Assembly (NCBI GenBank): GCA_964035545.1 | Contig: OZ037766.1 | Span: 12,223,722 to 12,287,721 of the forward strand | Direction: 5' to 3' | Length of the DNA: 64,000 nucleotides | DNA from: Bugula neritina | Taxonomy: Eukaryota > Bryozoa > Gymnolaemata > Cheilostomatida > Bugulidae | Part shown: in pieces, positions 31,533-63,189 of the stretch | Layout of the letters: each line of letters opens with the position of its first letter | How positions within the stretch are numbered: position 1 is the first letter of the stretch | Translations under genes and position numbers: made by a program | Notes under the pieces: model-generated | The model's database searches: none | What the model saw: only the letters and a program-made list of their open reading frames with translations | What the model was told of the DNA's origin: nothing

Positions 31533-34155
31533 TCACCAACGAATACATACAAATTCGCAATACTGTTGTCCTGAAACTGTGTGACATTCAAAGACCATTT
31601 CGAGACAAAGTGTATACCCCCGCTTGACTCTGCTATTTGAAGCTGAAGTAACTTTTGTATCTGAAATTAAAAACAAGTATGTTAACTAAAATCCATTTGG
31701 ATTCAGCACTAATTGAAATAACAAGATGTTAAATTATTTAAAATAGTAGCCAATATTATTTGTGCAAATGGACAGGCCAGGGCGGGCCCTGATGCTGAAA
31801 AATACCCAGCATTACCAAAAAGATGAAAAATACTAAAACGTTTTTTCTTGTTACAAATGTGTTGGAGTTTTTATCTAAATTTTACAATACAGTACTCCCC
31901 CTGTATCTCGCTAAGCTTTGGGTCCTGAAACCTCAATTTGCGACATAGTAGAATACCGGATTTAACTCACGGATCCAGTAAATTTGGCCATTTTGTCCCT
32001 AAACACACATACATGAGCCACAAAACCGAAGTCAAAACCATTCTTGTTACTTATGAAATTTTGTGAAAACTTGATCCGTGAGATATGGAGGGAACACTGT
32101 ATATTATAAAAGTGAGATATGGAGGTAACACTGTATTTAAAAGTGAGATATGGAAGGAACACTGTATATAAAAGCTGTAACTACAAGCAAGATAGTTACC
32201 AGAATCTCCTGTTGGTATCACAATCATCCATTTATACCCATTGGTGCACTCATTCTGCACACGTTTAGGAAGGAAACTGACATCTTGCACGAACTCATCG
32301 AGTACTTTAACATCTACTTCTGCGTCTTCCTCCTCTATTTCCTGGTCACCAAAGTTGTCCAGGAACTCCGACACCACATTTTCATTGTTGGCTTCATTGA
32401 ATGTAACAGGACTAATATAGCAGATGCCTTTATCAGCTCTGATTACACGGAGACCCTAAATAATTTGTATATGCATAGATTTCACACAGAGCACTACTGT
32501 TCATCATATACATATATGCTATATATAGTAAAACTACACAACTCTATACAGTCATACGTCCCCATGCTTCGCATTAAGCAAATGGATGTTTTATTCCATG
32601 CATGGAACAGTGTCAATTGAATGACCCCGCAACCACACATGCCAATGCAAAATTTCATTTCATGTGGGAGCTTATTGTAGGTGAAGTGAATATATTACTA
32701 CATTGAATCAAATAAATTTGCAAAAACTTAAAAAGATATTAAAACTAAAAAAATATGTTTACAAAATATCTGCATAATATACAGGTGCATAAACAGGTAC
32801 ACAACAATTTAGTAATCTTGCCTCTTTCATTTATAAGTGAATAGCACTCAGAAATATTTTAACCTTAGTACATGATATAGACGCTATAACAGACACATAT
32901 CTACTAACACTGTGCACTATATGTACTATATAATAGGCAAGATCTCATACTATTCAACATATATATGAGCTGCATCAACCACTATTTACCTTTTGAAACA
33001 AATCAGCATGAAAAGTACCATCAGCTCGGTGGTAGTATGCCACATGTTCATCTTTGTTCAGCATAACCTGATCCTTCACCTATATTGTACACAAAGTCTT
33101 GTTAACCATTAGCCTCATTTCTAATATTTTTATTATACATAAACTTTTAAAAACAACATTGCTATAAATTCACGTAATTAAAATCCAATACTCTTGCATT
33201 TTATCAACATTATATCTGATTTTATTTATTGCTTCATTTCTATTTTCAACTTTTTTTAAAATTCAAGATTCTTTTTAAATTTATTGTTTCTATCTTTACA
33301 CTCAACACCTCCAGCAGTGACTACTGTTGTGTAGGCAAATAGTACTGTGACTTGCTGTTTATTGGTATACAAAACCTGGTCAAATACATTATAGTAAATT
33401 ATTCGTAGTTTTTTATATAAAAAATTAAATTTATAAAATACTACAACACTATTTTAAAAGTTGTAAAAATTTGATGTTTTCAACATCTCTCTGGTTTCAT
33501 ATCACAGAACCAGCAACTTTTATGATAGATAGTTATAGTGTTCCTTTAAGTTCTTACACAGCTCAATGGGGATGTATCAGCATAAGTTGAAATAATTCAA
33601 AGAAGAATTTTAGGTTGAGAAAAAATTTATCCGGGATAACAAATACATAAGAGTTGATAATATTTTAAACTCTTTACTCACATGTTGGTTGTCAGGAGTT
33701 CTAATGTTAACAGTTGCCTGGACATCTGCACTCACTCTGGTCGTCTTCTCAGGTTCTTTCTGCTGGCAAACTGCATGAGTTTTAGTCAGGCCCATGTAGA
33801 TAACGGCTGACACAGAAACAACCAACAGAATGGAGATAACCAGCAAGGAGACTCCCAGGAGCTTTGACTTGTCGCTTTTCTCAACCATCTGTGAACACAC
33901 AATTGAATGAATTTCCAATGTACATAATAATTTAACCTAATTATAAGTTGCTATGTTTTAAAAATCCCAATAATAATTTGACTCAAACAATTCAGCTTGA
34001 AAAAACTTTGCTAAAATTTAAAAGATATTGCCAATAAGTTATTGAAAATTTTATTTGATGGTTCTCAAGTTATAAAGTTGATATAAATGTAAGAGAAAGC
34101 TTGCCTTAACGTCTTCGAATGTCTGTTTGTCCGAGAAGTTCATATTAATCTTCAT
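31533..34155 (-). CDS. BRICHOS-domain precursor with four-Cys C-terminal peptide, copy A
   Basis: Five exons on -: 34155-34105, 33888-33682, 33079-32990, 32455-32200, 31660-31533 (TGA); 243 residues. Residues 1-26 are a cytosolic tail. 27-49 form one TM helix (LLVISILLVVSVSAVIY). About 60-201 are the BRICHOS domain with the family Asp106 and Cys128/Cys186. RVKR (212-215) is a furin-type site. The last 28 residues are the released peptide, with Cys spacing 6, 8, 3 and a short IRW end. BRICHOS domains chaperone aggregation-prone C-terminal segments, and in annelid relatives (arenicin, capitellacin type) these are beta-hairpin antimicrobial peptides. Here the peptide has three Glu and one Arg, so it is slightly acidic and its activity is uncertain. 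Intron 1 seems to use a GC donor (AAG|GCAAGC). A TATAAAA box lies 46-52 bp upstream of the ATG. Confidence 0.85.
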
Positions 34156-34200
34156 TCTATGAGTTGAGATTGAATGATTTCAGCTGAAATCGCTGCAGCC

Positions 34201-34207
34201 TTTTATA
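34201..34207 (-). promoter_or_regulatory. TATA box of copy A
   Basis: TATAAAA on -, in the block GACAGGCTGGTATAAAAGGC that is conserved in copies A-D. It lies about 50 bp before the ATG. Confidence 0.65.
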
Positions 34208-35176: not shown

Positions 35177-36802
35177 CATCACATTTTCTTGTTTGGATAA
35201 AAAGTTGCAGCATACACTAATGGGTCAATAACCTGTTTATAGCTTTTCTTCTTTGGCACGTTTGGTTGTGAATTGGAGAGTTATATCTTCACAATCAGTT
35301 GCCATCCAAGACCTCTGCAGGAATTTTCCACGGTAAAAAATAGATGTGGAATGGTTAGGTAATACGTCAAGTACTCTTCTTTCACAATTACAAAGCTTTC
35401 AAAAGTTATAAAAAAAGTCACTAGGAGGGTGAAGCAACATATTTCAAGTAGAAGGTATTGCATAAACTAGCAAATTCCTGACTGGAAAATGTGGGTAATG
35501 ACCTGTAAGAAAAGTTGCACATACAGCCTCAATAGTACAGATGTCCTCCAATACTTGCATTGTTTGCTATTAATTATTTGCCTAATATCCTGTAAATCAT
35601 GAGAAATTTGAACAATTAATACGGAAAAGCTACATCTTACTCCTGAAGAGTCAAAGGAAATCTACATGTGCGAGTTTCAATTGTAGGATTATGGATCTGC
35701 TGTGATGGTGTTATGACACACGGCTTTCGGTACAGATGAAAATAATGCTTTGGAGTAGCTGTCAAATGAATGTACAGGTGAACAGCTGCGGGGACTTAGA
35801 ATTCGAGCTGGTACTGCATCAATAGAGAAATTGAGAAAAGTCTGTGTTCTAGATTAAGAATTTAGCAAAATAAGTTAGATTTTTGCAAGAATTTCAACTC
35901 GAGCCCCAAATCAAAATTTAATAATAAAATTAAAGAACTTAGGCGGTCTCAATTTCTCCACTACTGCTTCTAAGTGCAGAATTCTAGTTTGTATCTGTTA
36001 AGTTAGGCTAATACTACAGCAAGAAATTGGATGCTTTTAAACTCCTGGCAAACTTTATAAGATTTTCTGGCCAGCTCAATATGGGATTTCTTCTTGATCA
36101 ATCACTATGACAGCACAACTCCTACTCCATAAAATGAACTATTGTGTTTAGTTATAGTGTGCTAGGCTAGCGGCATTGATGATGCTGTTCTATAGCTAGG
36201 TAAAAGTTTGTCCAAATTTTTCTGACTTTGTAAACAAAATATCACTCGTGAGGAAGTTATACAGCAGATCGCAGTTTCATCTGCAGAATTGGAGACGACA
36301 CACCAACATATTGGAGATGATGGGATCATAGCAGACACACCAACATTGGTAATGAAACAACCATTGCAACAATGGAAGTCTAGGATTCTGGGTAGTTTAA
36401 AGAGAGTCGCCAGAAAAGAATTTGTTGGCCATTTCCGACTCCTAATTGTTAATGGTATGACCCAAATGTTCAACAGTGTTTAAAAAAGTTACATATGTCT
36501 AATTGTATTTGAAAACTATGCTTCTGAAGTGCTGCAATTAAATTTGGGAGATAAGTTGGTGTTATTGTTCTGTTCGGTCCACTAGTCCACTGTATTCCGT
36601 TATACAGCAACTCCTGGAAATTTCTAAGGTCAAGGTGTTCATGCAGGCTGTTAAAGCTGAGGTGAGCTATGGGAAACTCCAAAAGCACATTTAGTTAATA
36701 ATATTCAAATAAAGCATACTGATCATGCACTATATAGCTGTCTCGTGTCGTATTTTAGGCTCAAATTGTAAGCAAACATTTGTGAAGTAGAACTTGGTGC
36801 AG

Positions 36803-37102
36803 GGTGTCCAAATGGCACAGGTAAAGATGGCACAAACGGAAAGGTGGGTAAAAGTGGCCCATTTTGAATATTGGGGTTTGAGGTGGAGGCTTGGGGATTT
36901 AGGGTGGAGGGTTTATAGGTTTGGAGTTTGAGGAGTTGAAAAAATTTAACATTAGCATGCCATATTTACCTACTTTTCCGTTTGTGCCATTGTTACGTGT
37001 GCCATTGTTACCCGTGCCATTATTACCTGTGCCATTTTCACTGGGCCATTTTTACCTGTGCAATGTTTACTTGTGCCATGTTTACCCGTGCCATTTATAC
37101 CT
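36803..37102. mobile_element. Foldback-like inverted repeat element, copy 2
   Basis: Starts GGTGTCCAAATGGCACAGGT and ends with repeated TTTACCCGTGCCATT units around a GGGGTTTGAGGTGGAGGCTT core. Same structure as at 30,971. It is the arm partner of 58,050. Confidence 0.7.
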
Positions 37103-38470
37103 AAAATTGAGTGTAGAGTTGACCTTCTCTAAGCCAGCTCAATATTTTTTGCAGAGTAGATGCTGCGTAGTAACATAGCATAACATTTATAGTAGACTGT
37201 AATAACAAAAGAACAACATTAATGCAGTTAAGTATTAATCATGATTGAGTTAATAATTTATGTATGTGTAGCTCGAAAGATTATAGTTAAACTGGTGAAA
37301 AGTTTAATATATTATTATAAATTGCATAATAACTTTTTGCAGACAATTTATCACATTTACAGGCACAAAAAATCTGTTAGCAAAAAAGTAACAGAGTCAG
37401 TTAATTTGTGTTGCTTTCTAGTTATCTAGTTTTTTATAACCAATTTTATTTTTTATATTGTTTTGCTAGTTATTTCATAGTTATATAATAATATTGTACA
37501 AGTAGTAATCATGTGTTCTTCGTTAGTTGAACTTGTTTAGTTAATCTGAAGTAGTTACTTATTAGTTATTGCTGTTACATTTTTCCAAAATATATTTAAT
37601 TAAGAACTGGTATCAAAGGGGTTATTGTTCAGTGGGAACATTCGATGTGGCCAGATAAGTTATGTAGTAACAAAGTGTGACAATTTCAATCCTTTGCATG
37701 GCTGTGTTAGGCAAAATAGATAAATACTCTAAAATGTTGTTTAAATTACTATTATAGTGCTTTAAGCCATTCACTGCATAGCCCTAGAGTAGAAAAATAG
37801 TAGAGGTAGGGTAAGAATGGCACCACCTCATTTATATTCAGATAGCCACATACCCAATAGTTAACACAAGGTATATAAACCAAAACAGCCACAACTTATA
37901 ATCTAACAATTCCACTTCATCATAAATAAGGATATTCTATGAGTAAATGTGACAGTTAAAGTATGCAGGTGAATGTTGCTGGGCATGATGTGTAAACCAG
38001 TTTATTAATTATAAGTTTATACTTGGGATCTCAGGTTCAAAATCCCAAATGCTATTTTATAGCTAATGCAGTATATTTATGAATTCATAAAGGCCATCAG
38101 GTTAGAAAAAAGTAATTTTATTAGAAACTTTTAAAAGGAAAATTTGAAATTTTTTGATTACTTTAATGGATTATATCAAAGATGCCATTATTTATGGTTA
38201 TCTTTTGAAAGCTTTATTGCTAAATAAAATGCATAAAAATGGTACAGTCAACATAAGGCTAAATTTTAACCAATAAGCAAAACAGGAAAATATTATAATG
38301 CTTTGTAACTCACAAGTTTATTCTCAATAGATAAAGCACACTATATCAAAGCTGAAGTTCAAAATAGAAAAATTTTAATTATAATTTTATAGCTTGCCAT
38401 ACTTTTAAACACAAATCATAAATTTATATGAACTCTTAGCAGCCTTAAGCAATATTAAAAGACTTTTGGC
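37103..38470. other. Downstream flank of copy B
   Basis: Non-coding. 37,573-38,200 is closely repeated downstream of D (inverted) and of E (60,023 onward, direct). A candidate poly(A) signal for copy B (AATAAA on -) lies at 38,213-38,218. Confidence 0.6.
38213..38218 (-). terminator. Candidate poly(A) signal of copy B
   Basis: AATAAA on -, about 255 bp after the stop. The same site exists in copy D at 56,907-56,912. Confidence 0.45.
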
Positions 38471-40864
38471 TTATCCTCTAATAGTACATATACGACGTAC
38501 ATAACAATAAGCTCTCCTGAAAATGATGTAGCAGTAGTAGCGATTGTAGCAACTGACTCGGCGTTTAACTCTTCCATGGGTAGCTGAAGTAACAGCTGCA
38601 TCTGGAATAAAAAGGCAATCTCATTGAAAAAAAATGTCTACATTCAACAGTAATTATATTAAAAAACAAATAGAAAAATACAAGTTATTATACTAAAAAG
38701 TCAAAAGGAACTAAAACTTTCAACCTCGCTGCAAACAATAGGCTTGACTTTTGGTGAACTGTAACAGGTGAACTAAACAAGATAGTTACCAGAATCTCTT
38801 GTTGGCATCACAATCATCCATTTATACCCATTGGTGCACTCATTCTGCACACGTTTAGGAAGGAAACTGACATCCTGCACGAACTCATCGAGTACTTTAA
38901 CATCTACTTCTGCGTCTTCCTCATCCAGTTCCTGGTCATCGAAGTTGTCCAGGAACTCCGACACCACATCTTCATTGTTGGTTTCATTGAAAGCAACAGG
39001 ACTAATATAGCAGATGCCTTTATCAGCTCTGATTACACGGAGACCCTAAACAGGTTGTATGCATAAATTTCACAGAACCATGCATACATAGCCGACCATA
39101 TAAATATATATAACATATAGTGAAACTACAATACTTTGCATGGTCATATTATGCCACAATTCCAAACCGACTTGCATACATATGCTCAAAAAGATTTTAA
39201 AACAAAAAACTATGCATTGACATAATCTAAGCAAACATAAGCACATATAGCCTATTATATATAGAATTTATATATGTGTAAAAATTTACGTACGATGCAA
39301 GCTTTTATTTTATTTAGAGAATAGCACTAGCTACTTTCACTCAGAAAGAGTCGTACATGATATACACACTGTAGCTGACACATATCTACTAACACTTTGC
39401 ACTATGTGCACTATATAATAGGCAAGATATTGCATACTATTCAACATATGTATGAGCTGTATCAACTGCCATTTACCTTTTGAAACAATTCAGCATGAAA
39501 AGTACCATCAGCTCGGTGGTAATATGCCACATGTTCATCTTTGTTCAGCATAACTTGATCCTTCACCTATATTATACACAAAGTTTTTTAAACCATTAGC
39601 CCTGTTTCTAATATTTTCATTATATATGAAAATTTTAGTAGCAACCTCCCGCAGAATACATGTATAATTAAAATAGAAAACCAAAATTTTTACATTTCTG
39701 TACCAATATTATGCCTGATTTCATGGATTGTGGAACTTTAATTTTCAACTAAATATTTACTAACTGTTTTCTTTTGGCAATATTAATTTAAATGATTGCT
39801 ACAAATCTTATACTCAAAGCCTGTAACATCAATCTTATAGTATGTGTACCAACAGCCATACTGGCAACTTATATATAGATATACAGAATTTTTGCTAAAT
39901 ATTTACAGCAAATCACTCAAATCTTTATGCAAGAAAACGAATATAAAACACTGCAATATCATTTCAAAAGTTAAAAAAGTGTAATATCTTAAAACATGTG
40001 TGTGGTTGCATATTACAAAACAAATAACTTAATCATGAAAAATAGTTATACTGGCATGAGTTGAAATACTCTTAGTTCAGCTATATTGTATAATGAAATT
40101 AGACTTCAAGTTGTATAGGATAATGTAAGCTGAACGATTTTTTGGTGCTTTTAACTTGCCAAAATATTTTAGTTAGCAAATGGACATGATCATATACATG
40201 TTTTACTTACAGCTGCATGTGGATGTACTGGCACTAGTTGAAATAATTCAAATAAAAACTTTAGGTTGAAAAATAATGTGCTGCAAACAATGTTTATATA
40301 GCATTTTCAATTTACCAAAATAGCTTATTTGCTAGATAACAATTGCACAAGAGTTGATAATATTTTAAACTCTTTACTCACATGTTGGTTGTCTGGAGTT
40401 CTAATGTTAACAGTTGCTTGGACATCTGCACTCACACTGGCAGTCTTCTCAGGTTCTTTCTGCTGGCAAACTGCATGAGTTTTAGTCAGGCCCATGTAGA
40501 TAACAGCTGACACAGAAACAACCAACAGAATGGAGATAACCAGCAAGGAGACTCCAAGCAGCTTTGACTTGTCGCTTTTCTCAACCATCTGTGAACACAA
40601 AATTTAATGAATTTCTAATCTACATAACAATTTAACCTCATTATAAGTTGCTATGTTTTATAAATCACAATAATAATTTAACTCAAATAATTCAGCTTGA
40701 AAAAACTTTGCTATAAAATTATTACTTTGTTTAAATTAGTAATTAAAATTAATTGGTAATAATTAAATAAAAATTTTATTTGATGATTCTTTAATTATAA
40801 AAATAAAGCTTGCCTTAACGTCTTCGAATGTCTGTTTGTCTGACGAGTTCATACTAATCTTCAT
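38471..40864 (-). CDS. BRICHOS-domain precursor with Arg-rich beta-hairpin-type peptide, copy B
   Basis: Five exons on -: 40864-40814, 40588-40382, 39566-39477, 39045-38790, 38601-38471 (TAA); 244 residues. Same plan as copy A: cytosolic tail, TM helix at 27-49, BRICHOS domain with Asp106 and Cys128/Cys186, acidic stretch DDQELDEEDAEVD at about 152-164, and RVKR at 212-215. The last 29 residues hold seven Arg and no acidic residue (net about +7), many Tyr/Ile, and four Cys at 219, 225, 234 and 240 (spacing 5, 8, 5). A symmetric two-disulfide amphipathic hairpin is expected, as in arenicin/tachyplesin-type antimicrobial peptides. The final Gly could donate a C-terminal amide (inference). The TATA box is at 40,909-40,916. 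Copy D encodes the identical peptide. Confidence 0.9.
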
Positions 40865-40908
40865 TCTATGAGCTCAGATTGAATGATTTTAACCAAAATA
40901 ACTGCAGC

Positions 40909-40916
40909 TTTTTATA
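40909..40916 (-). promoter_or_regulatory. TATA box of copy B
   Basis: TATAAAAA on -, followed by GCTGCAGTTATTTTGGTTAA and preceded by a CCCAAGTGAGACAGGCTGG block shared with copy D. Confidence 0.65.
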
Positions 40917-43245
40917 CCAGCCTGTCTCACTTGGGGGCAGAGTTTTGTAATAATTATGTTGAGTAATTGCCAAAGAAGAAAGATTATTTTAAAGATATGA
41001 AAAGGAAGCATATTGGCAATTTGAAAAATATTTTGGCAAACAATAATTTAAGTAGGGCAATTAAAAGCTGAAATATAAAAAGAAACTTTCCCACATGTTT
41101 TTCCAATGCCAGTAGTTTTCCGTCATGCTATAAAAAGGGGAAACTAACTTTTCTAATTTTAAAGAATGCACATTTAGAATAAGTAACTCATGCCAAATTA
41201 TGAAAATAAATAGTCTTTAATTTGTTTTAGTTTTTTAATGCCACATCCTTTCTACACTAAAAATGAATAATCAACAAGGCAAATTCCTCAAAGATACGAA
41301 GTTTGCACTCACAAAAATTTAAATTGGTTGTTTGTATGATAATGGCAATTTACATTAAATATAGTGTAGGCTATATTATGTAGCAATTCTGCAATTTGTA
41401 ATCAAATTCTTATACCAAATTCCTCAAAGATACAAAGTTTGCACTCACAATATTCACATTTAGTTATTTGGAGAATAATGGCAATTTACATTGGATATCT
41501 TGTATATTATATAACCATTATGCAATGTAATAAAATTCTTATACCAATATTTTTAAAGTTTTGTGCATTTGCTATATATGTACATTATGCTAAAGCAACA
41601 TCTTACTTGTCACATCAACAGTTATGCTTTATATTTTCATAAATCTGTTGCAGAGTCTTACTCAAAGAAATGTGCATCTTTTAAAAAAGGTGAAGCTAAA
41701 CCTAGATTTGCAATAATGCATATTTATAATGTAGTATTTTATATAGGAAAAAAATAATAGGCCTATCACTTTTTGCTATCAATATAGTAAACAAAACTAT
41801 TAAGTTGAAACAAAATGAAAATTTTTGATGGTAGCTGTAAGTCAGATTACAAGTAACTCTCGTATCCATGGTGACAGTTATTAGTAGCACCATGTTTTCC
41901 CATTTTGAAATGTTGCATTATATGTCAAAACCTAATTTTTGGTTAAATATGCAGATTCATTTTGCATTATATAATTATGTATACACATTATGGAAACAAT
42001 GACTGGAAACGTGTATTTTTATAGAAAACAGATGCGTCTGAGCTATTACTTTGAAGATCTCAATTGTTCGTTTAATTTTGACGGTTTGGCAAACATTATT
42101 TTTACCATTCGCTTATAAAAAAGTGAATTATAATATATATTATTTCTAGCTTAACATTCATAAATTGCAAATTGTAATACACTACGTTTCTAAGCCTCGC
42201 ATTATGCAAATCAATTTTTCATTCTATGTTTGGACACAGTTGCATCAAATGAAACCACAACGATAAGTTCATACATGCAAATGCAAAGCAATAGAAAGGC
42301 ATTGTTATAAGGTGCAGTGCTTGTTCTAACTAAGCCCTAAGCCCTAAGACAAATGCGCTGGTTTTGTTGGTGCCATTTTATATAGATACTTCCCAGGTAG
42401 ACACTAGGTTTTCTACATGAAGCTTTATTTTGGTACGATATATTTATTTTGTTTGTGCATGGTTTAAGAAGCATGTAACTGGGATGATACCCTTGTTTTG
42501 GGTACTTTGCGTTTAGGATAAATTACTAGAATATGATGCTTATTGCACCTAACCAGCTCCTCGAACACAAATTACAATGTTGGTTTGAGAACAATTGTCT
42601 TTTTAAATTGACTTTAAATAATTACCAATTTAACGTATGTCAAGAGTGTTTCACCAGAGCAATTTTGCAAGAAAGCAGTATGAATGTTTTACAAATGAAA
42701 ATACAATGTAGGTGTTGATCACAGTCAAATTTTCTATAAGTTGATGAACAAAGAGCAAAGAACAGCATGGATTAGGATTGAGTGTAGATTCAGACCATGC
42801 AGCCTGCGATGTGAAAGATACTCATCAGAGCTGACTGATGCGTAAAATGTATTATAAAACTACTAACTATACTCTTAACAAACTATAATAAAGATATTAA
42901 TGCCCTCCCATTGGTTGATATCAGTTCCCATTAATGCCTTATTGGATGAGTGTGCATATATTGTAATATCCTTGCAGCAGCAGATGCTTTTACATCAAAA
43001 GAGTTGTTCAAAATCTATTGCATTTGGCAAAATAATATTCTCTTTAAATTTAATTTTGCCAATTATTCAAGTTTACAGCTCAACTATAATTTAATAGATC
43101 TTTTTAAAATAACTGCAAGAATTTGTTGCATCATTTGTCAAAAGGCATTTAGATGAAAAAACTATCTTTTGGCACACGAAAAGTTCCTTATTGGCTGGAA
43201 AGTTCATGATTACAGATTTTTTCCTCAATTATGTCAAACATATCT
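40917..43245. other. Upstream flank of copy B
   Basis: No gene seen. Short open frames here are in AT-rich DNA with no splice or family signal. It includes a tandem duplication of about 137 bp (41,282-41,420 and 41,421-41,555, AATTCCTCAAAGATAC) that is single in the right arm, and a MITE at 42,371-42,487. Confidence 0.6.
42371..42487. mobile_element. MITE, AGTTAGACG family, short form (left arm)
   Basis: TGCCATTTTATATAGATACT + TCCCAGGTAGAC at the left and GTAACTGGGATGA at the right. The core TTTATTTTGGTACGATATAT is shared with the copy at 9,308. Confidence 0.65.
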
Positions 43246-44279
43246 AAATGAAAATCTGCACAGATATTGATGGCTTAGGTATTTGGTTTATAAAGATATG
43301 TTATGTTGTTTTTTCAGCCCATCAAGCTTATACACTACTGACTACACAAGCGAAAATGCTCAATAAACAATTCGGATGAAATCACATCCTTTCCTTGTCT
43401 GCTTCAACACTATCTATAATAATTACAAAGCCTGGTTGTATAAGTTACACATGTCTTGCATGACCTATTGTAAAGAATTGGTATCGTTATTGTTATTATC
43501 GAAAGGATAACTCCTCGTGGCTTATTCCCTATACGCATCATGGCACGATGTCTACAAGTTCAACAGATCAATTATCGTAACAGCTGACAATTGTAATGCG
43601 TATAGTCTCTCTTATACTCGGCTGGACAGTAATTGCTAGCTACTAATGTAAGCTGTGAAACAAGGCAGGACTAGTCAATTAGGAACAATAGCTAGCGTTA
43701 GTAAATAGCCAATCAGCTTAGTAAAAGGTTTAAATAACTTGTGAGTAGTTGGCGATTAGCCGGCAGAGTGGATCGAGTTCTGATAATGTAAAGTTGTGTG
43801 TAAATCACTCTCTATTATGTAATCGTGTGTACTAGTGTTAACAGTTTTATTTCTTATATAATTCGCAATAATGAAGTCTATTCAATTTGTTCGAAATCTG
43901 GTGAAGTGGCTTTGCATAAGTAGACCCACTAATTATAGTGAATCGTAAATTCACTACACTATTAAGTCTTCACTATTTTGTCAAATTAAACATAAAACAA
44001 TTACTGTAACAATCTTTTTATTTAACCATTAATTGACCCTATTTTAAACTTCTCTACAACATATCTCAATAGTTCACTTCCTAGACTGATACAGTAATTA
44101 TGAATGAAGACTGGCTAACTAAATCTAGGCACCCACTCATCATTTATTATTACTCTTGGTGTCAGATTTGATAAATTTATGGGGCGGGCTTAGTTGTGTG
44201 GACCGAGAAGACTGGCATGTACTCAAATTTTGTAACGTGTAAACAAATACTAGTGAGTCAGAATCAGGCAAAAGACTAA
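43246..44279. other. Spacer between the inverted arms, left part
   Basis: Nothing coding. The 43,440-43,900 stretch (TTTAAATAACTTGTGAGTAG, GATCGAGTTCTGATAATGTA) has an LTR-like look, but no target-site duplication or primer-binding site was found. Confidence 0.35.
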
Positions 44280-50975: not shown

Positions 50976-50982
50976 TTTTATA
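50976..50982 (-). promoter_or_regulatory. TATA box of pseudogene copy C
   Basis: TATAAAA on - in the conserved promoter block. It suggests copy C may still be transcribed (inference). Confidence 0.5.
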
Positions 50983-51880: not shown

Positions 51881-52122
51881 ATTATTTTATAGGCACTATA
51901 GAGCAGAGAATTACCATCATTGCTGATTTTCATTGCTCGCTCTCCTTTGCTTTGCAGAACTTAAATTAATCACTAAGCTGGCTTAAATGTTTAAATGTTT
52001 AAAACACAGGCTATACTACACGCTGCTAAGTAAAAACTCGGAAAACTATCTAAATTGCTACATATGTTAACAGTCAAAGTTAACAATACTTAATATCATT
52101 TCCGTACTTTACAGTGCCTAGA

Positions 52123-54211
52123 TTTTAGATATATTTGACATGATTGAGGAAAACATTTGTAATCATAAATTTTCCAGCCAATAAGGAACTTTTTGTGTGC
52201 CAAAAGATAGTTTTTTTATCTAAATGTCTATTGGCAAATGATGCAACAAATTATTGCAGTTATTTTAAAAAGATCTATTAAATAGTTGAGCTGTAAACTT
52301 TAATAATATTGGCACAATTAAATTTAAAGAGAATATTATCTTGCCAACTGCAATAGATTTTAGACAACTCTTTTGATGTAAAAGAATCTGCTGCTGCAAG
52401 GATATTACAATATATGCATACTCATCCAATAAGGCATTAATGGGAACTGATATCAACCAATGGGAGGGCATTAATATCTTTATTATAGTTTGTTAAGAGT
52501 ATAGTTAGTAGTTTTATAATACATTTTACGCATCAGTCAGCTCTGATGTGTATCTTTCACATCGCAGGCTGCATGGTCTGAATCTACACTCAATCCTAAT
52601 CCATGCTGTTCTTTGCTCTTTGTTCATCAACTTATAGAAAATTTGACTGTGATCAATACCTATATTGTATTTTCATTTGTAAAACATTCATGCTGCTTTC
52701 TTGCAAAATTGCTCTGGTGAAACACTCTTGACATACGTTAAATTGGTAATTATTTAAAGTCAATTTAAAAAGACAATTGTTCTCAAACCAACGTTGTAAT
52801 ATTTGTGTTCGAGGAACTGGTTAGGTGCAAGAAACATTATAATCTAACAATTTATCCCAAATGCAAAGTACCCAAGACAAGGGTTTCATCCCATTTATAG
52901 ACACTTCTCAAATCCCAAACAAGATACATATATCATACCAACAAAAATAAGTAGCTCCATGTGGAAAACCTAGTGTCTACATGGGAAGCGTCTTTCTGAA
53001 ATGGCACCAAAACAAGCAGTGCATTTGCCTTAAGGCTTTTGTGGTTTCATTTGACGCAACTGTTTCCAAACATTGAATGAAAAATTCATTAGCATAATAT
53101 GAGGCTTGGAAACGTAGCGTATTGCAATTTTCAATTTATGAATGTTAAGCTATAGAAATAATATATATTATAATTCACTTTTTTATAAGCGAATGGTACA
53201 AATAATGTTCGCCAAACCGTCAAAATTGAACGGACAATTGAGATCTTCAAAGTAACAGCTCAGACGCATTATTTTTATAATGCGTATACATAATTATATA
53301 ATGCAAAATGAATCTACATATTTAGCCCAAAAACTAGGTTTTGATATATAATGCAACACTTCACAATGTTCTGCTAATAACTGTCATCATGGATACGAAA
53401 GTTACTTTTAAAACATACAGCTACCATTAAAAAATGTAATTTTGTTTCAACTTAATAGTTTTGTTTACTATATTGATAACAGAAAATGATAGGCCTATTC
53501 TTTTTTTACTATATAAAGCATTACATTATAAATATACATTTGTGCAAATCTAGGTCTTATAGCTTCACCTTTTTTTTAAAAGATGCACATTTCTATGGGT
53601 AAGACAATGCAACAGATTTATGAAAATATAAAGCATAACTATTGATGTGACAGATAAGATGTTGCTTTAGCACAATGTATATATATAGCAAATGCACAAA
53701 ACTCTAAAAGAATTTTATTACAAATTGCAGAATGGCTACATAATATAGGCTACATAATATACACTATATTTAATGTCAATTGCCATTACCATACAAACAA
53801 CCAATTTTAATTTTTGTGAGTGCAAACTTCGTATCTTTGAGGAATTTGCCTTGTTGATTATCAATTTTTAGTGCAGAAAGGGCGTGGCATTAAAACACTA
53901 AAACAAGTTATAAACTATTTATTCTCACAATTTGGCATGAGTTGCTTATCCTGAGTGTGCATTCTTTAAAATTGGAAAAGTTAGTTTCCCCTTTTCATAG
54001 CATGATGGAAAACTACTGGCATTGGAAAAACGTTGGAGAAAGTTTCTTTTTATATTTTAGATGTTAATTGCCCTATTTAAATTTTTGTTTGCCAAAATAT
54101 TTTTCAAATTGCCAATGTGCTTCCTTTTCATATTTTTAAAATAATCTTTCTTCTTTGGCAATTACTCAACATAATTATTACAAAACTCTACCCCCAAGTG
54201 AGACAGGCTGG
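52123..54211. other. Upstream flank of copy D
   Basis: Non-coding mirror of the copy B upstream flank, including the MITE at 52,887-53,006. Short open frames are chance in AT-rich DNA. Confidence 0.6.
52887..53006. mobile_element. MITE, AGTTAGACG family, short form (right arm)
   Basis: Inverted-arm partner of 42,371-42,487. It reads TCATCCCATTTATAGAC at the left and GGGAAGCGTCTTTCTGAAAT at the right. Confidence 0.65.
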
Positions 54212-54218
54212 TATAAAA
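54212..54218 (+). promoter_or_regulatory. TATA box of copy D
   Basis: TATAAAA, 52 bp before the ATG, within GAGACAGGCTGGTATAAAAA, as in copies A-C. Confidence 0.65.
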
Positions 54219-54263
54219 AGCTGCAGTTATTTTGGTTAAAATCATTCAATCTGAGCTCATAGA

Positions 54264-56668
54264 ATGAAGATTAGTATGAACTCCTCAGACAAACAGACAT
54301 TCGAAGACGTTAAAGCAAGCTTTATTTTTATAATTAAATAATCATCAAATAAAATTTTCATTTAATTACTACCAATTATTTTTAATTACTAATTCAAACA
54401 AAGAAATAATTTTTAGCAAAGCTTTTTTAAGCTAAATTATTCAGGCTAAACTTTTAAATTGCAGTTTACAAAATGTGGCAACTTTTGATTAGGTTGAATT
54501 AAAACTTCCCTCAATTTTGTGTTCACAGATGATTGACAAAAGTGACAAGTCAAAGCTGCTGGGAGTCTCTTTACTGGTTATCTCCATTCTGTTGGTTGTT
54601 TCTGTGTCAGCCGTTATCTACATGGGCCTGAATAAAACTCATGCAGTTTGCCAGCAGAAAGAGCCTGAGAAGATGACCAGAGTGAGCGCGGATGTCCAAG
54701 CAACTGTTAACATTAATACGCCTGACAACCAACATGTGAGTAAAGAGTTTAAAATATATAAACTCTTGTGCATTTGTTATCTAAGAATTTTAAGACATCT
54801 TGATATATCGAAAATGCTATATAAATATTGTTTGCAGCACATTATTTTTCAACTTGAAATTTTTATTTGAATTATTTCAACTAATGTCAGTACATCCACA
54901 TGCAGCTGTAAGTAAAACATGTATATATCATATCCATTTGCTACCTAAAATATTTTGGCAAGTTAAAAGCACCAAAAAATCGTTCAGCTTAAATTATTCC
55001 ACAACTTGAAGTCCAATTTTGTTATACAATATAGCTGAACTAAGAGTATTTCAACTCATGCTAGTATAACTATTTTTCATGATTAAGTTATTTGTTTTGT
55101 AATATGAAACCACACACATGTTTTAAGATATTACACTTTTTTTAACTTTTGAAATGATATTGCAGTGTTTTATATTTGTTTTCTCGCATAAAGATTTGAG
55201 TGATTTGCTGTAAATATTTAGCAAAAATTTTGTAAATATAAGTTGCGAGTATGACTGTTGGTACACATACTATACGATTGATGTTACAGGCTTTGAGTAT
55301 AAAATTAGTAGCCATCATTTGAATTAATATTGCCAAAAGAAAACAGTTAGTAAATATTTAGTTAAAAATTGAAGTTCTACAATCCATGAAATCAGGTATA
55401 ATAATGGTACTGAAATGTAAAAATTTTGGTTTTTGATTTTAATTATACATGTATTATGCGGGAGGTTGCTACTAAAATTTTCATATATAATAAAAATATT
55501 AGAAATGAGACTAATGGTTTAAAAAACTTTGTGTATAATATAGGTGAAGGATCAAGTTATGCTGAACAAAGATGAACACGTGGCATACTACCACCGAGCT
55601 GATGGTACTTTTCATGCTGAATTGTTTCAAAAGGTAAATGGCAGTTGATACAGCTCATACATAATATGGTGTGGTGATTATAGTATGCAATATCTTGCCT
55701 GTTATGTATACAAGTGTAAGTAGATATGTGTCTGGTGCAGCTTGTATATCTTGTACGAACATTTCTGAGTGAAAGTAGCTATAGTGCTATTCTCTAAATA
55801 AAATAAAAGCTTGCATCATACATAAATTTGTACACATATATAAATTCTATATATAATAGGCTATATGTGCTTATGTTTGCTTAGATTATGTCAATGCATA
55901 GTTTTTTGTTTTAAAATCTTTTTGAGCATATGTATGCAAGTCGGATTGGAATTGTGGTATAATATAACCATGCAAAGTATTGTAGTTTCCCTATATGTTA
56001 TATATATTTATATGGTCGGCTATGTATGCATGGTTCTGTGAAATTTATGCATACAACCTGTTTAGGGTCTCCGTGTAATCAGAGCTGATAAAGGCATCTG
56101 CTATATTAGTCCTGTTGCTTTTAATGAAACCAACAATGAAGATGTGGTGTCGGAGTTCCTGGACAACTTCGATGACCAGGAACTGGATGAGGAAGACGCA
56201 GAAGTAGATGTTAAAGTACTCGATGAGTTTGTGCAGGATGTCAGTTTTCTTCCTAAACGTGTGCAGAATGAGTGCACCAATGGGTATAAATGGATGATTG
56301 TGATGCCAACAGGAGATTCTGGTAACTATCTTGTTTAGTTACACTTTCTGTTACAGCTCACCAAAAGTCAAGCATATATTTTGCAGCGAGGTTGAAAGTT
56401 TTAGTCCCTTTTGACTCTTTAGTATAATAACTTGTATTTTTCCACACACAAGTTAAATAATCTATATTTACTTTTTATTTTAATTACTGCTAAATGTAGA
56501 AAAAAAATTTTTTTAATAAGATTGCTTTTTGTTCCAGATGCAGCTGTTACTTCAGCTACCCATGGAAGAGTTAAACGCCGAGTCAGTTGCTACAATCGCT
56601 ACTACTGCTACATCATTTTCAGGAGAGCTTATTGTTATGTACGCCGTATATGTACTATTAGAGGATAA
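54264..56668 (+). CDS. BRICHOS-domain precursor with Arg-rich beta-hairpin-type peptide, copy D
   Basis: Five exons: 54264-54314, 54529-54735, 55544-55633, 56066-56321, 56538-56668 (TAA); 244 residues. Architecture as in copy B: TM helix at 27-49, BRICHOS with Asp106, Cys128 and Cys186, RVKR at 212-215, then the 29-residue Arg-rich peptide with Cys spacing 5, 8, 5, identical to B (only a synonymous CGT/CGC change was seen in the last exon). Differences lie in the propeptide: exon 2 begins MIDKSDK, and Asn replaces Thr in MGLNKT and Arg in NINTPD. The first exon ends in A rather than G before the GC donor (AAA|GCAAGC), which should weaken splicing, so first-exon use should be checked. It is on the opposite strand from the other copies. 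A poly(A) signal AATAAA lies at 56,907. Confidence 0.88.
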
Positions 56669-58049
56669 GCCAAAAGTCTTTTAATATTGCTTAAGATTGC
56701 TGTGAGTTCATATGAAATTATGATTTGTGTTTAAAAGTATGGCAAGCTACAAAATTATGATTAGAACTTTCTCTATTTTGAACTTCAGCTTTGTTATAGT
56801 GTGCTTTATCTATTGCAAAAAAAGCATTATGATATTTTCCTGTTTTGCTTATTGGTGAAAATTTAGCCTTATGTTGACTGTACCATTTTTATGCATTTTA
56901 TTTAATAATAAAGTTTTCAAAAAATAACCATAAATAATGGCATCTTTGATATGATTCATTAAAGTAGTCGAAAAAGAATATTTCTCTTACAACATTTTGA
57001 ATTTTCTTTTTAAAAGTTTCTAATAAAATTACTTTTTTCTATCCTGATGGCCTTTATGAATTCATAAATATACTGCATTAGCTATAAAATAGCATTTGGG
57101 ATTTTGAACCTGAGTTCCCAAGTATAAACTTATAATTAATAAACTGGTTTACACATCACCCCCAACAACATTCACCTGCATACTTTAACTGTCACATTTA
57201 CTCATAGAATATCCCTATTTATGATGAAGTGGAATTGTTAGATTATAAGTTGTGGCTGTTTTGATTTATGTACATTGTGTTTACATTGGGTATGTGGCTA
57301 TCTGAATATAAATGACGTGGTGTCATTCCTACCCAACCTCTACTATTTTTCTACTCTAGGGCTATGTAGTGAATGGCTTAAAGCACTATAATAGTAATTT
57401 GAACAACATTTTAGAGTATTTATCTATTTTGCCTAACACAGTCATGCAAAGGATTGAAATTGTCACACTTTGTTACTACATAACTTAGCTGGCCACATCG
57501 AATGTTCCCACTGAACAATAACTCCTTTGATACCAGTTCTTAATTAATTATATTTTGGAAAAATGTAACAGCAATAACTAATAAGTAACTACTTCAGATT
57601 AACTAAACAAGTTCAACTAACGGAGAACACATTACTACTTGTACAAAATTATTATATAACTATGAAATAACTAGCAAAACAATATAAAATGAAAATTGGT
57701 TATAAAAAACTAGATAACTAGAAAGCAACACAAATTAACTGACTCTGTTACTTTTTTGCTAACATATTTTTTGTGCCTGTAAATGTGATAAATGTTATTA
57801 TGTTATTAAGTTATTATGCAGTTTATAGTAATATATTAAACTTTTCACCAGTTTTACTATAATCTTTCGAGTTACACATACACAAATTATTAACTCAATT
57901 ACGATTATTACTTAATTGCATTATTGTTGTTATTTTGTTATTACAGTCTACTATAAATAATATTATGCTATGTCTCTACGCAGCATAAATTATACTCTGC
58001 AAAAAATCTTAAGCTGGCTTAGAGAAGGTCAACTCTACACCCAATTTTA
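56669..58049. other. Downstream flank of copy D
   Basis: Non-coding mirror of 37,103-38,470. It contains the poly(A) candidate AATAAA at 56,907-56,912. Confidence 0.6.
56907..56912 (+). terminator. Candidate poly(A) signal of copy D
   Basis: AATAAA about 240 bp after the stop codon, conserved with copy B. Confidence 0.45.
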
Positions 58050-58359
58050 GGTATAAATGTCACAGGTAAACATGGCACAGGTAAACATGGCACAAGTAAA
58101 CATTGCACAGGTAAACATGGCACAGGTAAAAATGGCACAGTGAAAATGGCACAGGTAATAATGGCACAGGTGACAATGGCGCAAATTGAAAAGTAGGTAA
58201 ATATGGCATGCTAATGTTAAATTTTTCAACTCCTCAAACTCCAAACCTAAACCCTTCACCCTAAATCCCCAAGCCCCCACCTCAAACCCCAATATTGAAG
58301 ATGGGCCACTTTTACCCACCTTTCCGTTTGTACCATTGTTACCTGTGCCATTTGGACAC
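58050..58359. mobile_element. Foldback-like inverted repeat element, copy 3
   Basis: Tandem AACATGGCACAGGTAA units at the left, a CCTCAAACCCCAATATTGAA core, and ACCTGTGCCATTTGGACAC at the right. It is the arm partner of 36,803-37,102 but has a different number of units. Confidence 0.7.
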
Positions 58360-60936
58360 TCTGCACCAAGTTCTACTTCGCAAATGTTTGCTTACAATTT
58401 GAGCCTAAAAGACACACGAAACAGCTATAGTGCATGATCAGTATGCTTTATTTGGACGTTATTAACTGAATGTGCTTTGGAGTTTCCCTTAGCTCACCTC
58501 AGCTTTAACAGCCTGCATGAACACCTTGACCTTAGAAATTACCAGGAGTTGCTGTATAACAGAATAATTAGATCACTATACTAGTGGAACAGAACAATAA
58601 CACCAACTAATCTCCCAAATTTAATCGCAGCACTTCAAAAGCATAGTTTTCAAATACAATTAGACATATGTAAATTTTTTAAACACTGTTGAACATGTGG
58701 GTCATACCATTAACAATTAGGAATAGGAAATGCCCAACAAATTCTTTTCTGGCGGCTCTCTTTAAACTACCCAGAATCCTAGACTTCCATTGTTGCAATG
58801 GTTGTTTCATTACCAATGTTGTGTGTCTGCTATGATCCCATCATCTCCAATATGTTGGTGTGTCGTCTCCAATTCCGAAGATAAAACTGCTCTGCTGTAT
58901 AATTTCCTCACCAGTGATATTTTGTTTACAAAGTCAGAAAAATTTGAACAAACCTTTACCTAGCTATATAGAACAGCATCACCAAGCCACTAGCCTAGCA
59001 CACTATACCCAAACACAATAATTCATCTTATGGAGTAGGAGTTGTGCTGTCATAAGTGATTGATCAAGAAGAACTCCCATATTGAGTTGGCCAGAAAATC
59101 TTATAAAGTGTGCACCCAATTTCTTGTTGTACTATTAGCTTATTAACTTAACAGGTCCAGACTAGAATTCTACACTTAGAAGCAGTAGTGGAGAAATTGA
59201 GACAGCCTAAGCTATTTAATTCTATTATTAATTTTTGATTTGGAGCTCGAGTTAAAATTTTTGCAAAAATCTAACTTCTTTTGCTAAATTTTTAATCTAG
59301 AACACAGGCTTTTTTCAATTTCTCTATTGATGCAATCAGCTCGAATTTTAAGTCCCCAGCTGTTCACCTGTACATTCATTTGACAGCTACTCCCAAGCAT
59401 TTCATCTGTACCGAAAGCCGTATGTCATAACTATATCGCATCAGATCCATAATCCTACAATTGAAACTCACACATGTAGATTTTCTTTGACTCTTCAGTA
59501 GTAAGGTGTAGCTTTTCTGTACTGATTGTTCAAATTTCTCATGATTTACAGGATAGGCAAATAATTAATAGCAAACAATGCAAGTATTGAAGGGCATCTG
59601 TACTATTGAGGCTGTATGTGCAACTTTTCTTACAGGTCATTACCCACATTTTTCAGTCAGGAATTTGCTAGTTTATGCAATACTTTCTACTTGAAATGTG
59701 TTGCTTCAACCTCCTAGTGACTTTTTTATAACTTTCAAAAGCTCTGTAAACAAGAATTGTGAAAGATGAGCACTTTTAGACAATAGTATTATATCGTCAT
59801 CAGCATATTACCTAACCATTCCACATCTATTTTTGCAGTGGAAAATACCTGCAGAGGTCTTGGATGGCAACTGATTGTGAAGATATAACTCTCCAGTTTA
59901 CAAACAAACTGCCAAAGAAGACAAGCTATAAACAGGTTATTGACCCATTAGTGTATGCTGCAACTATAGTTCTGGTTCAATATAGATTCCAGCAAATTTT
60001 TATCCAAACAAGAAAATATGATGTTACATTTTTCCAAAATATATTTAATTAAGAACTGGTATCAAAGGGGTTATTGTTCAGTGGGAACATTCGATGTGGC
60101 CAGATAAGTTATGTAGTAACAAAGTGTGACAATTTCAATCCTTTGCATGGCTGTGTTAGGCAAAATAGATAAATACTCTAAAATGTTGTTCAAATTACTA
60201 TTATAGTGCTTTAAGCCATTCACTGCATAGCCCTAGAGTAGAAAAATAGTAGAGGTAAGGTAGGAATGGCACCACCTCATTTATATTCAGATAGCCACAT
60301 ACCCAATGTAAACACAAGGTGTATAAATCACAGCAGCCACAACTTATAAGTTAACAATTCTACTTCAACATAAATAGGAATATTCTATGTGTAAATGTAA
60401 GAGTGAAAGTATACAACAGAACAAATAGGGGATCAAGTGTAAACTCTTTTGTAAATTATAAGTCTATACTTGGGATCTCATGTTAAAAAACCAAAGTGCT
60501 ACTATGGCTAATGCGCAGTACAATTATAAATTCATTTAAAGACAATGAGTTATAATAAATTTATTTTATTATAAACTTTTAAAAGGAAAACTCAATATAA
60601 AGAATTTCATAAAAGAAAAGGTATTTTTCAATCAGTTTAATTTATTATACTACAGATGCCATTATTTATGGTTATATTTTTGACAATTTTATGATTAAAT
60701 AAAATTTGTAAATATTATATAATTAAATTAGGCTAAGTTTTTACCAAAAACAAAAACAGCAAAATATAATGTTTAATAACTCACAAACTTCTTTCAATAG
60801 ATTATATTAAGCAGATTATAACAAAGGTGAAGCTCAAAACAAAGCAATTTGTAATTATAATTATGGTTTGTCATATTTTTCAACGCAAATTTTAATTTTA
60901 TGAAAGCAATGTTTGCATGTAACTTACTGAAAGACA
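58360..60936. other. Outer right-arm DNA, then downstream flank of copy E
   Basis: 58,360-60,022 mirrors 35,177-36,802. From 60,023 the sequence switches to a direct copy of 37,573 onward. No gene was seen. The 62-codon frame at 59,864 is not conserved in the left arm as a gene. Confidence 0.6.
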
Positions 60937-63189
60937 TTACACACAAATGCGATATATATAACAATAAATTTCTTCGTCAAAAGGATAGCATCGATAGTAA
61001 TAGTAATAGGAACAAATAACTTGGCGTTTGGCTCTTCCATGTGAAGCTAAAGTGACATCTGCATCTGAAATAAAAACAACTATAGTAACAAATTTTCTTT
61101 TAGATTTAGCTGTGTAATTAAAAAAACCTAATAAATTATATATATCATTTTTGTTTGTTTTTGTGCTTTGCTAATCAGAAAAATCCATCATTAGAAGAGT
61201 GTCAAAAGTATGAAACCAATTTTCATTGTAAGTATGTTTAACTTTTGTGAACTGTAACAGAAAGCTCTAGCTAAGCAAGATAGTTACCAGAATCTCCTGT
61301 TGACATCACAATCATCCATTTATAGCCATTGGTGCACTCATTCTGCACACGTTTAGGAAGGAAACTGACATCCTGCACAAACTCATCGAGTACTTTAACA
61401 TCTACTTCTGCGTCTTCCTCCTCTATTTCCTGGTCACCAAAGTTGTCCAGAAACTCCGACACCACATCTTCGTTGTTGGTTTCATTGAAAGCAACAGGAC
61501 TAATATAGCAGATGCCTTTATCAGCTCTGATTACACGGAGACCCTAAATAATTTGTATATGCATAAATTTCACAGAACCATGCATATACAGCCGACCATA
61601 TAAATATATATAACATATAGTGAAACTACAATACTTTGCATGGTCGTATTATGCCACAATTCTAATCCGACTTGCATACATATGCTCAAAAAGATTTTAA
61701 AGCAAAAAACTATGCATTGACATAATCTAAGCAAACATAAGCACATATACTATATTATGGTAAATTTATATATGTTTACAAATTTATGTATGATGCAAGC
61801 TTTTATTTTATTTATAGAATAGCACTAGCTACTTTCACTCAGAAATATTCGTACATGATACACAAGCTGTAACAGACACATATCTACTTACACTTGTATA
61901 CATAACAGGCAAGATGTTGCATACTATTCACCACACCATATTATATATGAGCTGTATCAACTGCCATTTACCTTTTGAAACAATTCAGCATGAAAAGTAC
62001 CATCAGCTCGGTGGTAGTATGCCACGTGTTCATCTTTGTTCAGCATAACCTGATCCTTCACCTATATTATACACAAAGTCTTGTTAACCATTAGCCCCAT
62101 TTCTAATATTTTTATTATACATAAACTTTTAAAAATAACATTGCTATAAATTCATATGATATGATATGAAAATGTTAAAAACAATATACCTATACATTTC
62201 TAATATTTTTAATATATTATATGAAAATTTTAGTAGCAACCTCCCACATAATACATGTATAATTAAAATAAAACACCTTAAAATTTTTACATTTCCGTAC
62301 CAATATTATACCTGATTTCATAGATTGTAGAATCTCAACTTTCAACTAAATATTTACTAACTTTTTCTTTTGGCAACATTACTTCAAATAATGGCTACTA
62401 ATTTTATACTCAAAGCCTGTAACATCAATCTATTAGTATGTTTACCAACAGTCATACTGGCAACTTATATATAGATATACAGAATTTTTGCTAAATATTT
62501 ACAGCAAATCACTCAAATCTTTATGCAAGAAATCGAATATAAAACACTGCAATATCATTTCAAAAGTTAAAAAAGTGTAATATCTTAAAACATGTGTGTG
62601 GTTTTATATTACAAAACAAATAACTTAATCATAAAAAATAGTTATACTGGCATGAGTTGAAATACTCTTAATTCAGCTATATTGTATAATGAAATTAGAT
62701 TTCAAGTTGTGGAATAATTTAAGCTGAACGATTTTTTGGTGCTTTTAACTTGCTAAAACATTTTAGGTAGCAAATGGACATGATCATATACATGTTTTAC
62801 TTACAGCTGCATGTGGATGTACTGGCATTAGTTAAAATAAGTCAAATAAAAATTTCAGGTTGAAAAATAATGTGCTGCAAACAATGTTTATATACATGTA
62901 GCATTTTCGATTTATCAAAATATCTTTAAATTCTTAGATAACAAATGCACAAGAGTTTATATATTTTAAACTCTTTACTCACATGTTGGTTGTCAGGAGT
63001 TCTAATGTTAACAGTTGCTTGGATATCTGCACTCACTCTGGTCGTCTTCTCAGGTTCTTTGTGCTGGCAAACTGCATGAGTTTTAGTCAGGCCCATGTAG
63101 ATAACAGCTGACACAGAAACAACCAACAGAATGGAGATAACCAGCAAGGAGACTCCTAGCAGCTTTGACTTGTCGCTTTTCTCAACCAT
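60937..63189 (-). CDS. BRICHOS-domain precursor with Tyr-rich four-Cys peptide, copy E
   Basis: Four exons on -: 63189-62983 (TM), 62061-61972, 61543-61288, 61064-60937 (TAA); 226 residues from the ATG of the TM exon. The usual first exon is absent: homology to the other copies stops at 63,190, just before the acceptor, and other sequence follows. TM helix, BRICHOS Asp and both Cys are intact, and the acidic stretch reads GDQEIEEEDAEVD as in copy A. The cleavage site is RAKR. The 28-residue peptide starts with Gln (possible pyroglutamate) and has Cys spacing 7, 8, 5. It carries nine Tyr, two Arg and three acidic residues, so it is near neutral to slightly acidic. A TATATAA box at 63,270-63,276, in text resembling the normal promoter (CTGGTATATAAACTG), could drive a transcript that starts just upstream of the TM exon (inference). 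Confidence 0.75.

Follow-up and report, generated by a model that had tools for sequence, protein, structure and literature searches.

This article describes a cluster of precursor genes in the bryozoan Bugula neritina, located within a 64,000-nucleotide stretch of genomic DNA (hereafter the window; C2:12223722-12287721) of an assembly of 215.8 Mb, other contigs of which (C3, C5, C6 and C9) are referred to below. Five related copies occur at 31.5-63.2 kb, of which A, B, C and E are on the minus strand and D is on the plus strand. At each locus a type II membrane helix is combined with a BRICHOS-like domain, and an RxKR site precedes a peptide of 28-37 residues with at least four Cys (hereafter the cargo).

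Organization of the Gene Cluster

Copies A and B consist of five exons each and their spliced products have 243 and 244 residues, respectively. Exon 1 of A (34105..34155) encodes the cytoplasmic tail MKINMNFSDKQTFEDVK and ends in a GC donor, exon 2 (33682..33888) contains tail, transmembrane (TM) helix and linker, exon 3 (32990..33079) the first part of the BRICHOS-like domain, and exon 4 (32200..32455), which ends in phase 1, the part with both conserved Cys; exon 5 (31533..31660) carries RVKR and a 28-residue peptide with four Cys (coding 31533-31619 including the stop). The corresponding exons of B are located at 40814..40864, 40382..40588 (with the TM helix), 39477..39566, 38790..39045 and 38471..38601, the last with RVKR and a four-Cys peptide of 29 residues (38471-38560 including the stop). 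The boundaries of all four introns are conserved between A and B; intron 1 is of the GC-AG type and introns 2-4 are GT-AG.

Exons 2-5 of D (54529..54735 with the TM helix, 55544..55633, 56066..56321 and 56538..56668) encode 227 residues and end in the same peptide as B (56579-56668 including the stop). Exon 1 of D, with 51 nucleotides (54264..54314), ends in AAA followed by GCAAGC, a weaker GC donor than the AAG followed by GCAAGC of A and B. Copy E has exons 2-5 only (62983..63189 with the TM helix, 61972..62061, 61288..61543 and 60937..61064), which encode 226 residues and finish with RAKR and a Tyr-rich four-Cys peptide of 28 residues (60937-61023 including the stop). The likeness of E to its relatives extends no further than 63194, which is five bases above its ATG, and in 63190-64000 unrelated sequence takes the place of exon 1 and the promoter region. 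This segment contains a TATA-like box (63270..63276, minus strand) at -87 from the ATG of E; it also has an ATG that opens the stretch MRIAYLSGK, after which there is a GT donor in phase 0. A TATA-like box at -52 from the first ATG is found in A, B and D, and the sequence around the box of E is unrelated to that around the boxes of these copies.

The predicted membrane helix is a 21-residue window with a mean hydropathy of 2.84, preceded by a tail of 26 residues in A and B or of nine residues in E. Intron 4, the last one, is in phase 1, and every last exon starts with Asp and continues with RxKR after ten residues, the Cys peptide and the stop.

Copy C departs from this plan. Its first ATG reads ATA, and exon 1 (50877..50915) was consequently taken from the second ATG; the acceptor of exon 2 (50417..50623) has become CACAA, with loss of the AG; exon 3 (46086..46175) lies downstream of a 4.2-kb intron 2, and the frame of exon 4 (45397..45639) is shifted by a 13-nt deletion. 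A weak cryptic acceptor 17 nt into exon 4 would preserve the frame, and exon 5 (45029..45183) keeps RAKR and a peptide of 37 residues with five Cys (45029-45142 including the stop). In C, exons 2-4 still surpass introns 1 and 3 in conservation. Given this conservation and the cryptic acceptor, in a copy that does not look intact as modelled, C appears to be either recently broken or unusually spliced; it is probably a decaying copy.

An earlier note on this DNA had proposed five BRICHOS precursor genes with a common five-exon plan, E lacking the first exon. Five copies are present and the plan was recovered in A, B, D and E, with the weaker exon 1 donor of D as a reservation; five intact genes are ruled out, as C is disabled in its modelled form, and the Pfam BRICHOS matches stay under the curated cut-off (see below). 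The phase-1 last exon with RxKR and a Cys peptide of 28-37 residues, also described there, is seen in every copy. The proposal of a tandem and inverted cluster with several cargoes is likewise borne out: B and D are situated on the two arms of an inverted duplication (35203..43248 and 52124..59965, respectively; three aligned pieces, 90%, 82% and 91% identical), and the cluster encodes four different peptides.

Cargo Peptides

The cargoes measure 28 (A), 29 (B and D, identical), 37 (C) and 28 (E) residues. The gaps between their Cys residues are 6-8-3 in A, 5-8-5 in B/D, 5-8-3-11 in C, which includes the fifth Cys, and 7-8-5 in E; thus, the middle gap is 8 throughout and the third is 3 in A and C and 5 in B, D and E. 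Net charges are -2 (A), +7 (B/D), +3 (C) and -1 (E), so that within the cluster only the B/D peptide is strongly cationic. The luminal prosegment is acidic in A, B and E (-8 to -11). As read from their sequences, the A and E peptides are not classical antimicrobial peptides, and the candidate explanation that all cargoes are cationic antimicrobials is ruled out by the charge of these two.

Mean beta propensity was compared between the cargoes and the luminal part of B, with C entered as the first 28 residues of its peptide. The cargoes of A, B/D, C and E, as well as those of the paralogues C3g1 and C3g2 and of the Bugula prediction P0002 (see below), lie above every luminal window of equal length in B (0 of 136-149 B windows reach the cargo mean). 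A search of the PDB with the B peptide gave no match.

Conservation and Duplication History

Over exons 2-4, A, B, D and E share 93-96% amino acid identity, and the ratio of nonsynonymous to synonymous substitution rates (dN/dS) is 0.15-0.26 in all six pairs; C was omitted owing to its frameshift, and gene conversion may affect these ratios. In 8 of the 10 copy pairs, each of exons 2-4 exceeds the alignable introns 2 and 3 in conservation (the 4.2-kb intron 2 of C was left out of the intron alignment); the exceptions are B/D and D/E, where the conservation of exon 2 falls slightly below that of introns 2 and 3. Searching the 216-Mb assembly with exon 2 gave five matches, every one within the cluster, and a tblastn search with 11 family exon queries (E 0.01) found no match in the 20 kb past the end of the window or the 10 kb before its start. 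Judged by the high exon identity, the low dN/dS, the conservation of exons over introns and the confinement of exon 2 to this locus, the gene cluster is not a chance pattern.

The two ends of the genes differ in their degree of likeness. Exon 5 of B and D is one synonymous base apart, whereas the B/D introns are 85-94% identical. Between B and E, identity reaches 93% in intron 2, 91% in intron 3 and 96% in exon 4, whereas intron 4 and exon 5 of this pair are only 60% and 69% identical, respectively. From these comparisons, the cargo end and the body of the genes have different histories, probably as a result of gene conversion of the body. Comparisons of the cargo did not demonstrate positive selection: dN calculated by NG86 was lower than dS in 7 of 10 of them, and dS was undefined (-1) in the other three.

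These data bear on the possibility that the locus is mixed, that is, one duplicated antimicrobial gene (B/D) accompanied by decaying kin, with A and E as relics or neofunctionalised copies and C as a pseudogene. The disabled state of C, the loss in E of the exon 1 and promoter region common to A, B and D, the lack of net positive charge in the A and E cargoes and the protein identity of the B/D cargo are all in line with it. On the other hand, A and E retain open frames, splice sites, RxKR, four Cys and low dN/dS in exons 2-4, and E is provided with its own TATA-like box at -87. We regard this scenario as a tentative one, with a limited chance of being correct.

Paralogues and Earlier Bugula Predictions

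When exon 4 was used as a protein query against the genome, further BRICHOS-like copies came to light, whose counts are lower bounds. They reached C2 at 29.4 Mb (one copy with exons 2-4 open and one broken), C3 at 22.52 Mb (at least two copies) and C6 at 10.97-11.02 Mb (at least four matches and a partial fifth). At least six interrupted BRICHOS-like exon-4 fragments occur at C5:8129081-8374702, and one broken copy with two exon-4 matches at C9:7900531-7900789. A Pfam BRICHOS search of the genome, exon by exon, gave one sub-threshold match at C2 27.57 Mb, which was viewed as a list of open reading frames only, and a large last-exon candidate at C2 29.42 Mb matched no Pfam family at its cut-off.

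Three paralogues splice cleanly (C3g1, C3g2 and C6g1). C3g1 and C3g2 are TM-anchored and terminate in EIVKRR followed by IKWPKITITIKITIRF and IKWPKIKITITITIRF, respectively, with a KRR site and not RxKR. The two genes lie at C3:22515159-22517549 and 22521236-22523367, and the short peptide encoded by the last exon of each lacks Cys and has the alternating pattern of a beta strand; the net charge of the C3g1 and C3g2 cargoes is +4. C6g1 (C6:10979215-10981165, minus strand) has a signal-peptide-like start and RIRR followed by an 83-residue Pro/Arg-rich tail, which resembles a proline-rich antimicrobial; it had no protein-database match at E<=10. C6g2 was discarded as an intact paralogue, its frame being lost as modelled. 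Past two further exon-4 matches, in the C6:11016060 region and at 10969.3 kb, there are open frames with a Lys/Arg/Gly/Phe-rich stretch and a RYRR-preceded tail; these are putative coding segments, and the possible cargoes at C6g0 and C6g3, which are open frames only, were left out of the counts.

Protein searches detected no homologues outside Bugula; the four matches (P0001-P0004) all belong to Bugula neritina. P0002, from another Bugula assembly, is a full-length counterpart of the C3 genes with the end IKWPKIKITITITINF, and since it carries the cargo end it gives outside support to the C3 cargo exon. This other assembly was annotated by AUGUSTUS with transcriptome hints (PMC7576161). The predictions join the same exon borders as the window genes: P0003 connects exons 1-2-3, P0001 exons 2-3-4, and P0004 exons 1-2-3 until a frame change within exon 3. 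Over the parts that they cover, P0001, P0003 and P0004 show 88-93% identity with gene B, and P0001 shows 93% with A; these values may be due to paralogy or to the cryptic species within the B. neritina complex.

A broader and more speculative view would see in these genes an exon-modular delivery family, where a phase-1 intron links a BRICHOS-like chaperone body, kept alike among copies partly by gene conversion, with cargo exons that diversify freely or are exchanged and that encode disulfide hairpins, beta strands without Cys or peptides rich in Pro and Arg. Such a family might serve colony defence and symbiont policing and be an ancient lophotrochozoan system, not an annelid invention; we give this view a low probability.

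A Candidate Counterpart of Annelid BRICHOS Antimicrobial Precursors

The set of features typical of the annelid precursors is present in the cluster: a hydrophobic anchor, an acidic BRICHOS-like part (assigned provisionally), a dibasic or furin site and a C-terminal, beta-prone Cys peptide. We therefore consider it fairly probable that the cluster is the bryozoan counterpart of the annelid BRICHOS antimicrobial precursors, with chaperoned, furin-cut products that release hairpins, the B/D peptide being antimicrobial. Once expressed, the precursor would reside in the membrane of the endoplasmic reticulum with its C-terminus in the lumen, the TM helix being preceded by a lysine-containing tail. 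The acidic BRICHOS-like luminal part would chaperone the beta-prone C-terminal peptide until its disulfides form, a furin-like protease would cut after RxKR late in the secretory pathway, and the freed peptide would be locked as a beta-hairpin by two disulfides. The B/D peptide would most likely be a membrane-active antimicrobial, because of its charge (+7) and its symmetrical Cys spacing (5-8-5), and A and E would release near-neutral or acidic relatives. Every step beyond gene structure is inferred from annelid and human BRICHOS proteins.

The identity of the domain was evaluated against 24,736 Pfam models, of which BRICHOS (PF04089) has a curated gathering cut-off of 25 bits. BRICHOS was the top-scoring family for A, B and E (14.4-15.3 bits; D was not among the models scanned) and also for the paralogue C3g2 (15.4 bits), with E-values of 0.022-0.046 for the four proteins. 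When domain pieces were used, 6 of 8 matched BRICHOS (best E 0.0062; 16.8 bits for the piece of A), followed by TOR1A_C with 2 of 8 (best E 0.13). The matches cover the BRICHOS model from position 9, 12 or 17 to 85-86 of 91. E-values near 0.01 over so many models are strong because BRICHOS had been named before the search. Both conserved BRICHOS Cys are invariant in 8 of 8 rows of the alignment (A4), and so is the Cys-Tyr motif; in addition, UniRef gives the name "BRICHOS domain-containing protein" to the Bugula relative P0002, which has the same plan.

A further point of comparison is the conserved Asp, whose equivalent depends on the anchor used. In single BRICHOS domains this position is Asp in 97%, Asn in 2.7% and Glu or Ser in the rest, according to the available text of PMC9627735. 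The C2, C3 and C6 paralogues carry an Asp that precedes the exon 3/4 border by four residues. With this border as anchor the window genes have Leu, and the residue just before it is Asp (A) or Glu (B, D and E); counting 16 residues from the Cys that precedes Tyr, as in proSP-C, the site is Asp in A and Glu in B/D/E. A PDB search with gene B as query returned one match, P-gp at E 0.78.

Several observations weigh against an annelid-type antimicrobial system. With regard to the domain, all the BRICHOS scores given (14.4-16.8 bits) are under the 25-bit cut-off; the CD59 model scores nearly as high as BRICHOS for C3g2 (14.5 bits, E 0.028 vs. 0.022); neither P0001-P0004, P0002 being full length, at E<=1 nor C6g1 in the Pfam scan matched BRICHOS; the window genes have Leu at the Asp site when this is placed by the exon border; proSP-C was not found at E<=10 in a PDB search with the domain profile, which matched two chains, neither named BRICHOS; and hhalign of the domain with proSP-C gave a probability of 0.4%. 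Concerning the cargo, the A (-2) and E (-1) peptides are not cationic, and the cargo exon is contained in none of the window-family predictions (P0001, P0003 and P0004), which leaves the splice from exon 4 to exon 5 in the window genes without outside support. Finally, two NF-kB patterns were matched nowhere upstream, in stretches of 1 kb for A-D and of 811 bases for E.

The sub-cut-off scores, the near-equal CD59 model, the lack of matches for P0001-P0004 and C6g1 and the negative hhalign result would also suit a lineage-specific acidic proregion that resembles BRICHOS by chance. The E-values (0.0062-0.046 over all models, for a family named beforehand), the recurrence of the match in a paralogue only 27-28% identical, the invariant Cys-Tyr motif and second Cys and the UniRef name of P0002 point the other way and make a chance resemblance very improbable. 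The domain is probably a divergent BRICHOS and is referred to here as BRICHOS-like. The profile check suggested by the earlier note thus came out in part: BRICHOS is the best and most frequent match, with every score under the curated cut-off.

The properties of the cargoes raise the question of whether the released Cys peptides could instead act as signals or structural elements on the animal's own cells or matrix after the same processing, in the manner of ITM2/BRI or chondromodulin. Human Bri2 is organized likewise, as a type II protein with a furin-type site and a Cys-bearing C-terminal peptide. The near-neutral or acidic A and E peptides, the Tyr-rich character of E and the failure to find NF-kB-like motifs upstream would agree with such a function, and Bri2 shows the general BRICHOS plan (PMC6780910). 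The B/D peptide is strongly cationic, and a divergent cargo exon beside a conserved body, in several copies and with differing paralogue cargoes, is unlike conserved signalling peptides; a signalling or structural role for the locus is accordingly rated as unlikely. The annelid-type antimicrobial reading remains the one we prefer, with the suggestion of an innate-defence locus put forward in the earlier note fitting B/D (+7) and not A (-2) or E (-1).

Other Features of the Window

Outside the cluster, 29540-30692 is occupied by a tandem repeat with a 21-bp unit, present in about 55 copies, which is open in several frames and probably explains the strong GC skew of this segment. Long Ser/Thr-rich and Gln-rich open frames at 13939-23000 are probably exons of an unrelated gene. 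The adjoining open frames at 10155-12253 resemble, as judged by a motif, C-terminal parts of polyproteins of retrotransposons lacking long terminal repeats (non-LTR).

Comparison With Known Systems

Human Bri2/ITM2B and chondromodulin resemble the Bugula precursors in being type II proteins with a BRICHOS domain, a furin-type cut and a beta-prone, Cys-bearing C-terminal part. They differ in having the canonical conserved Asp and are not known to occur as clustered variants with differing cargo; furthermore, the Bri2 extension is described as devoid of antimicrobial activity (PMC6780910). Arenicin and capitellacin have a Cys spacing other than that of the Bugula cargoes. Together with nicomicin (PMC6265681) they share with the cluster a hydrophobic N-terminus, an anionic BRICHOS proregion and a C-terminal Cys peptide, and they differ in their polychaete origin, signal peptides and cationic cargoes.

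The architecture that the earlier note called a known annelid plan is indeed that of the annelid BRICHOS antimicrobial precursors (PMC10745061; PMC6780910); the host is a bryozoan, and BRICHOS antimicrobial peptides (BRICHOS-AMPs) were described as identified in polychaetes only in the available text of a 2019 review (PMC6780910). A 2026 review covers beta-hairpin antimicrobials from five phyla, Bryozoa not being among them in the text available (PMC13001179). A search of the literature for BRICHOS in Bryozoa or Bugula found no link in the sources covered, which lay outside subscription journals and preprints; no bryozoan was named in the titles or abstract openings among the listed papers on BRICHOS with antimicrobial peptides or lophotrochozoa, nor a BRICHOS gene in those on Bryozoa and antimicrobial peptides. 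A bryozoan cluster would widen the range given in both reviews, for BRICHOS-AMPs and for the phyla with beta-hairpins. The locus would further offer a test of separate chaperone and cargo evolution, through the contrast of B and E, a source of candidate peptides, and a lead to how a bryostatin-bearing animal might manage its bacteria.

The closest annelid parallel is provided by the HfBRI precursors of Heteromastus filiformis (PMC10745061), where annelid counterparts include five TM-anchored precursors. They have a short N-terminal piece, a TM helix, BRICHOS, a dibasic site and a C-terminal peptide, and several unrelated cargo classes occur in the one species, two-disulfide beta-hairpins among them and some without marked cationic character (HfBRI-75/-91). 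The two-disulfide hairpin HfBRI-25 shows minimum inhibitory concentrations of 0.125-2 uM in plain broth (PMC10745061). HfBRI are known from transcripts of an annelid, with activity measured for two peptides; in addition, the Cys spacing stated for HfBRI-54 is not 5-8-5.

Preproalvinellacin of Alvinella (PMC5431198) is likewise a multigene BRICHOS-AMP family, partly in tandem, whose last exon carries the cargo; for its body, recombination or gene conversion has been proposed, and the cargo is kept identical between paralogues, as in B/D. It differs in having a signal peptide in place of the TM helix and five introns against four in the Bugula genes. The A. pompejana paralogues all carry one cargo, whereas the Bugula cluster encodes four different peptides.

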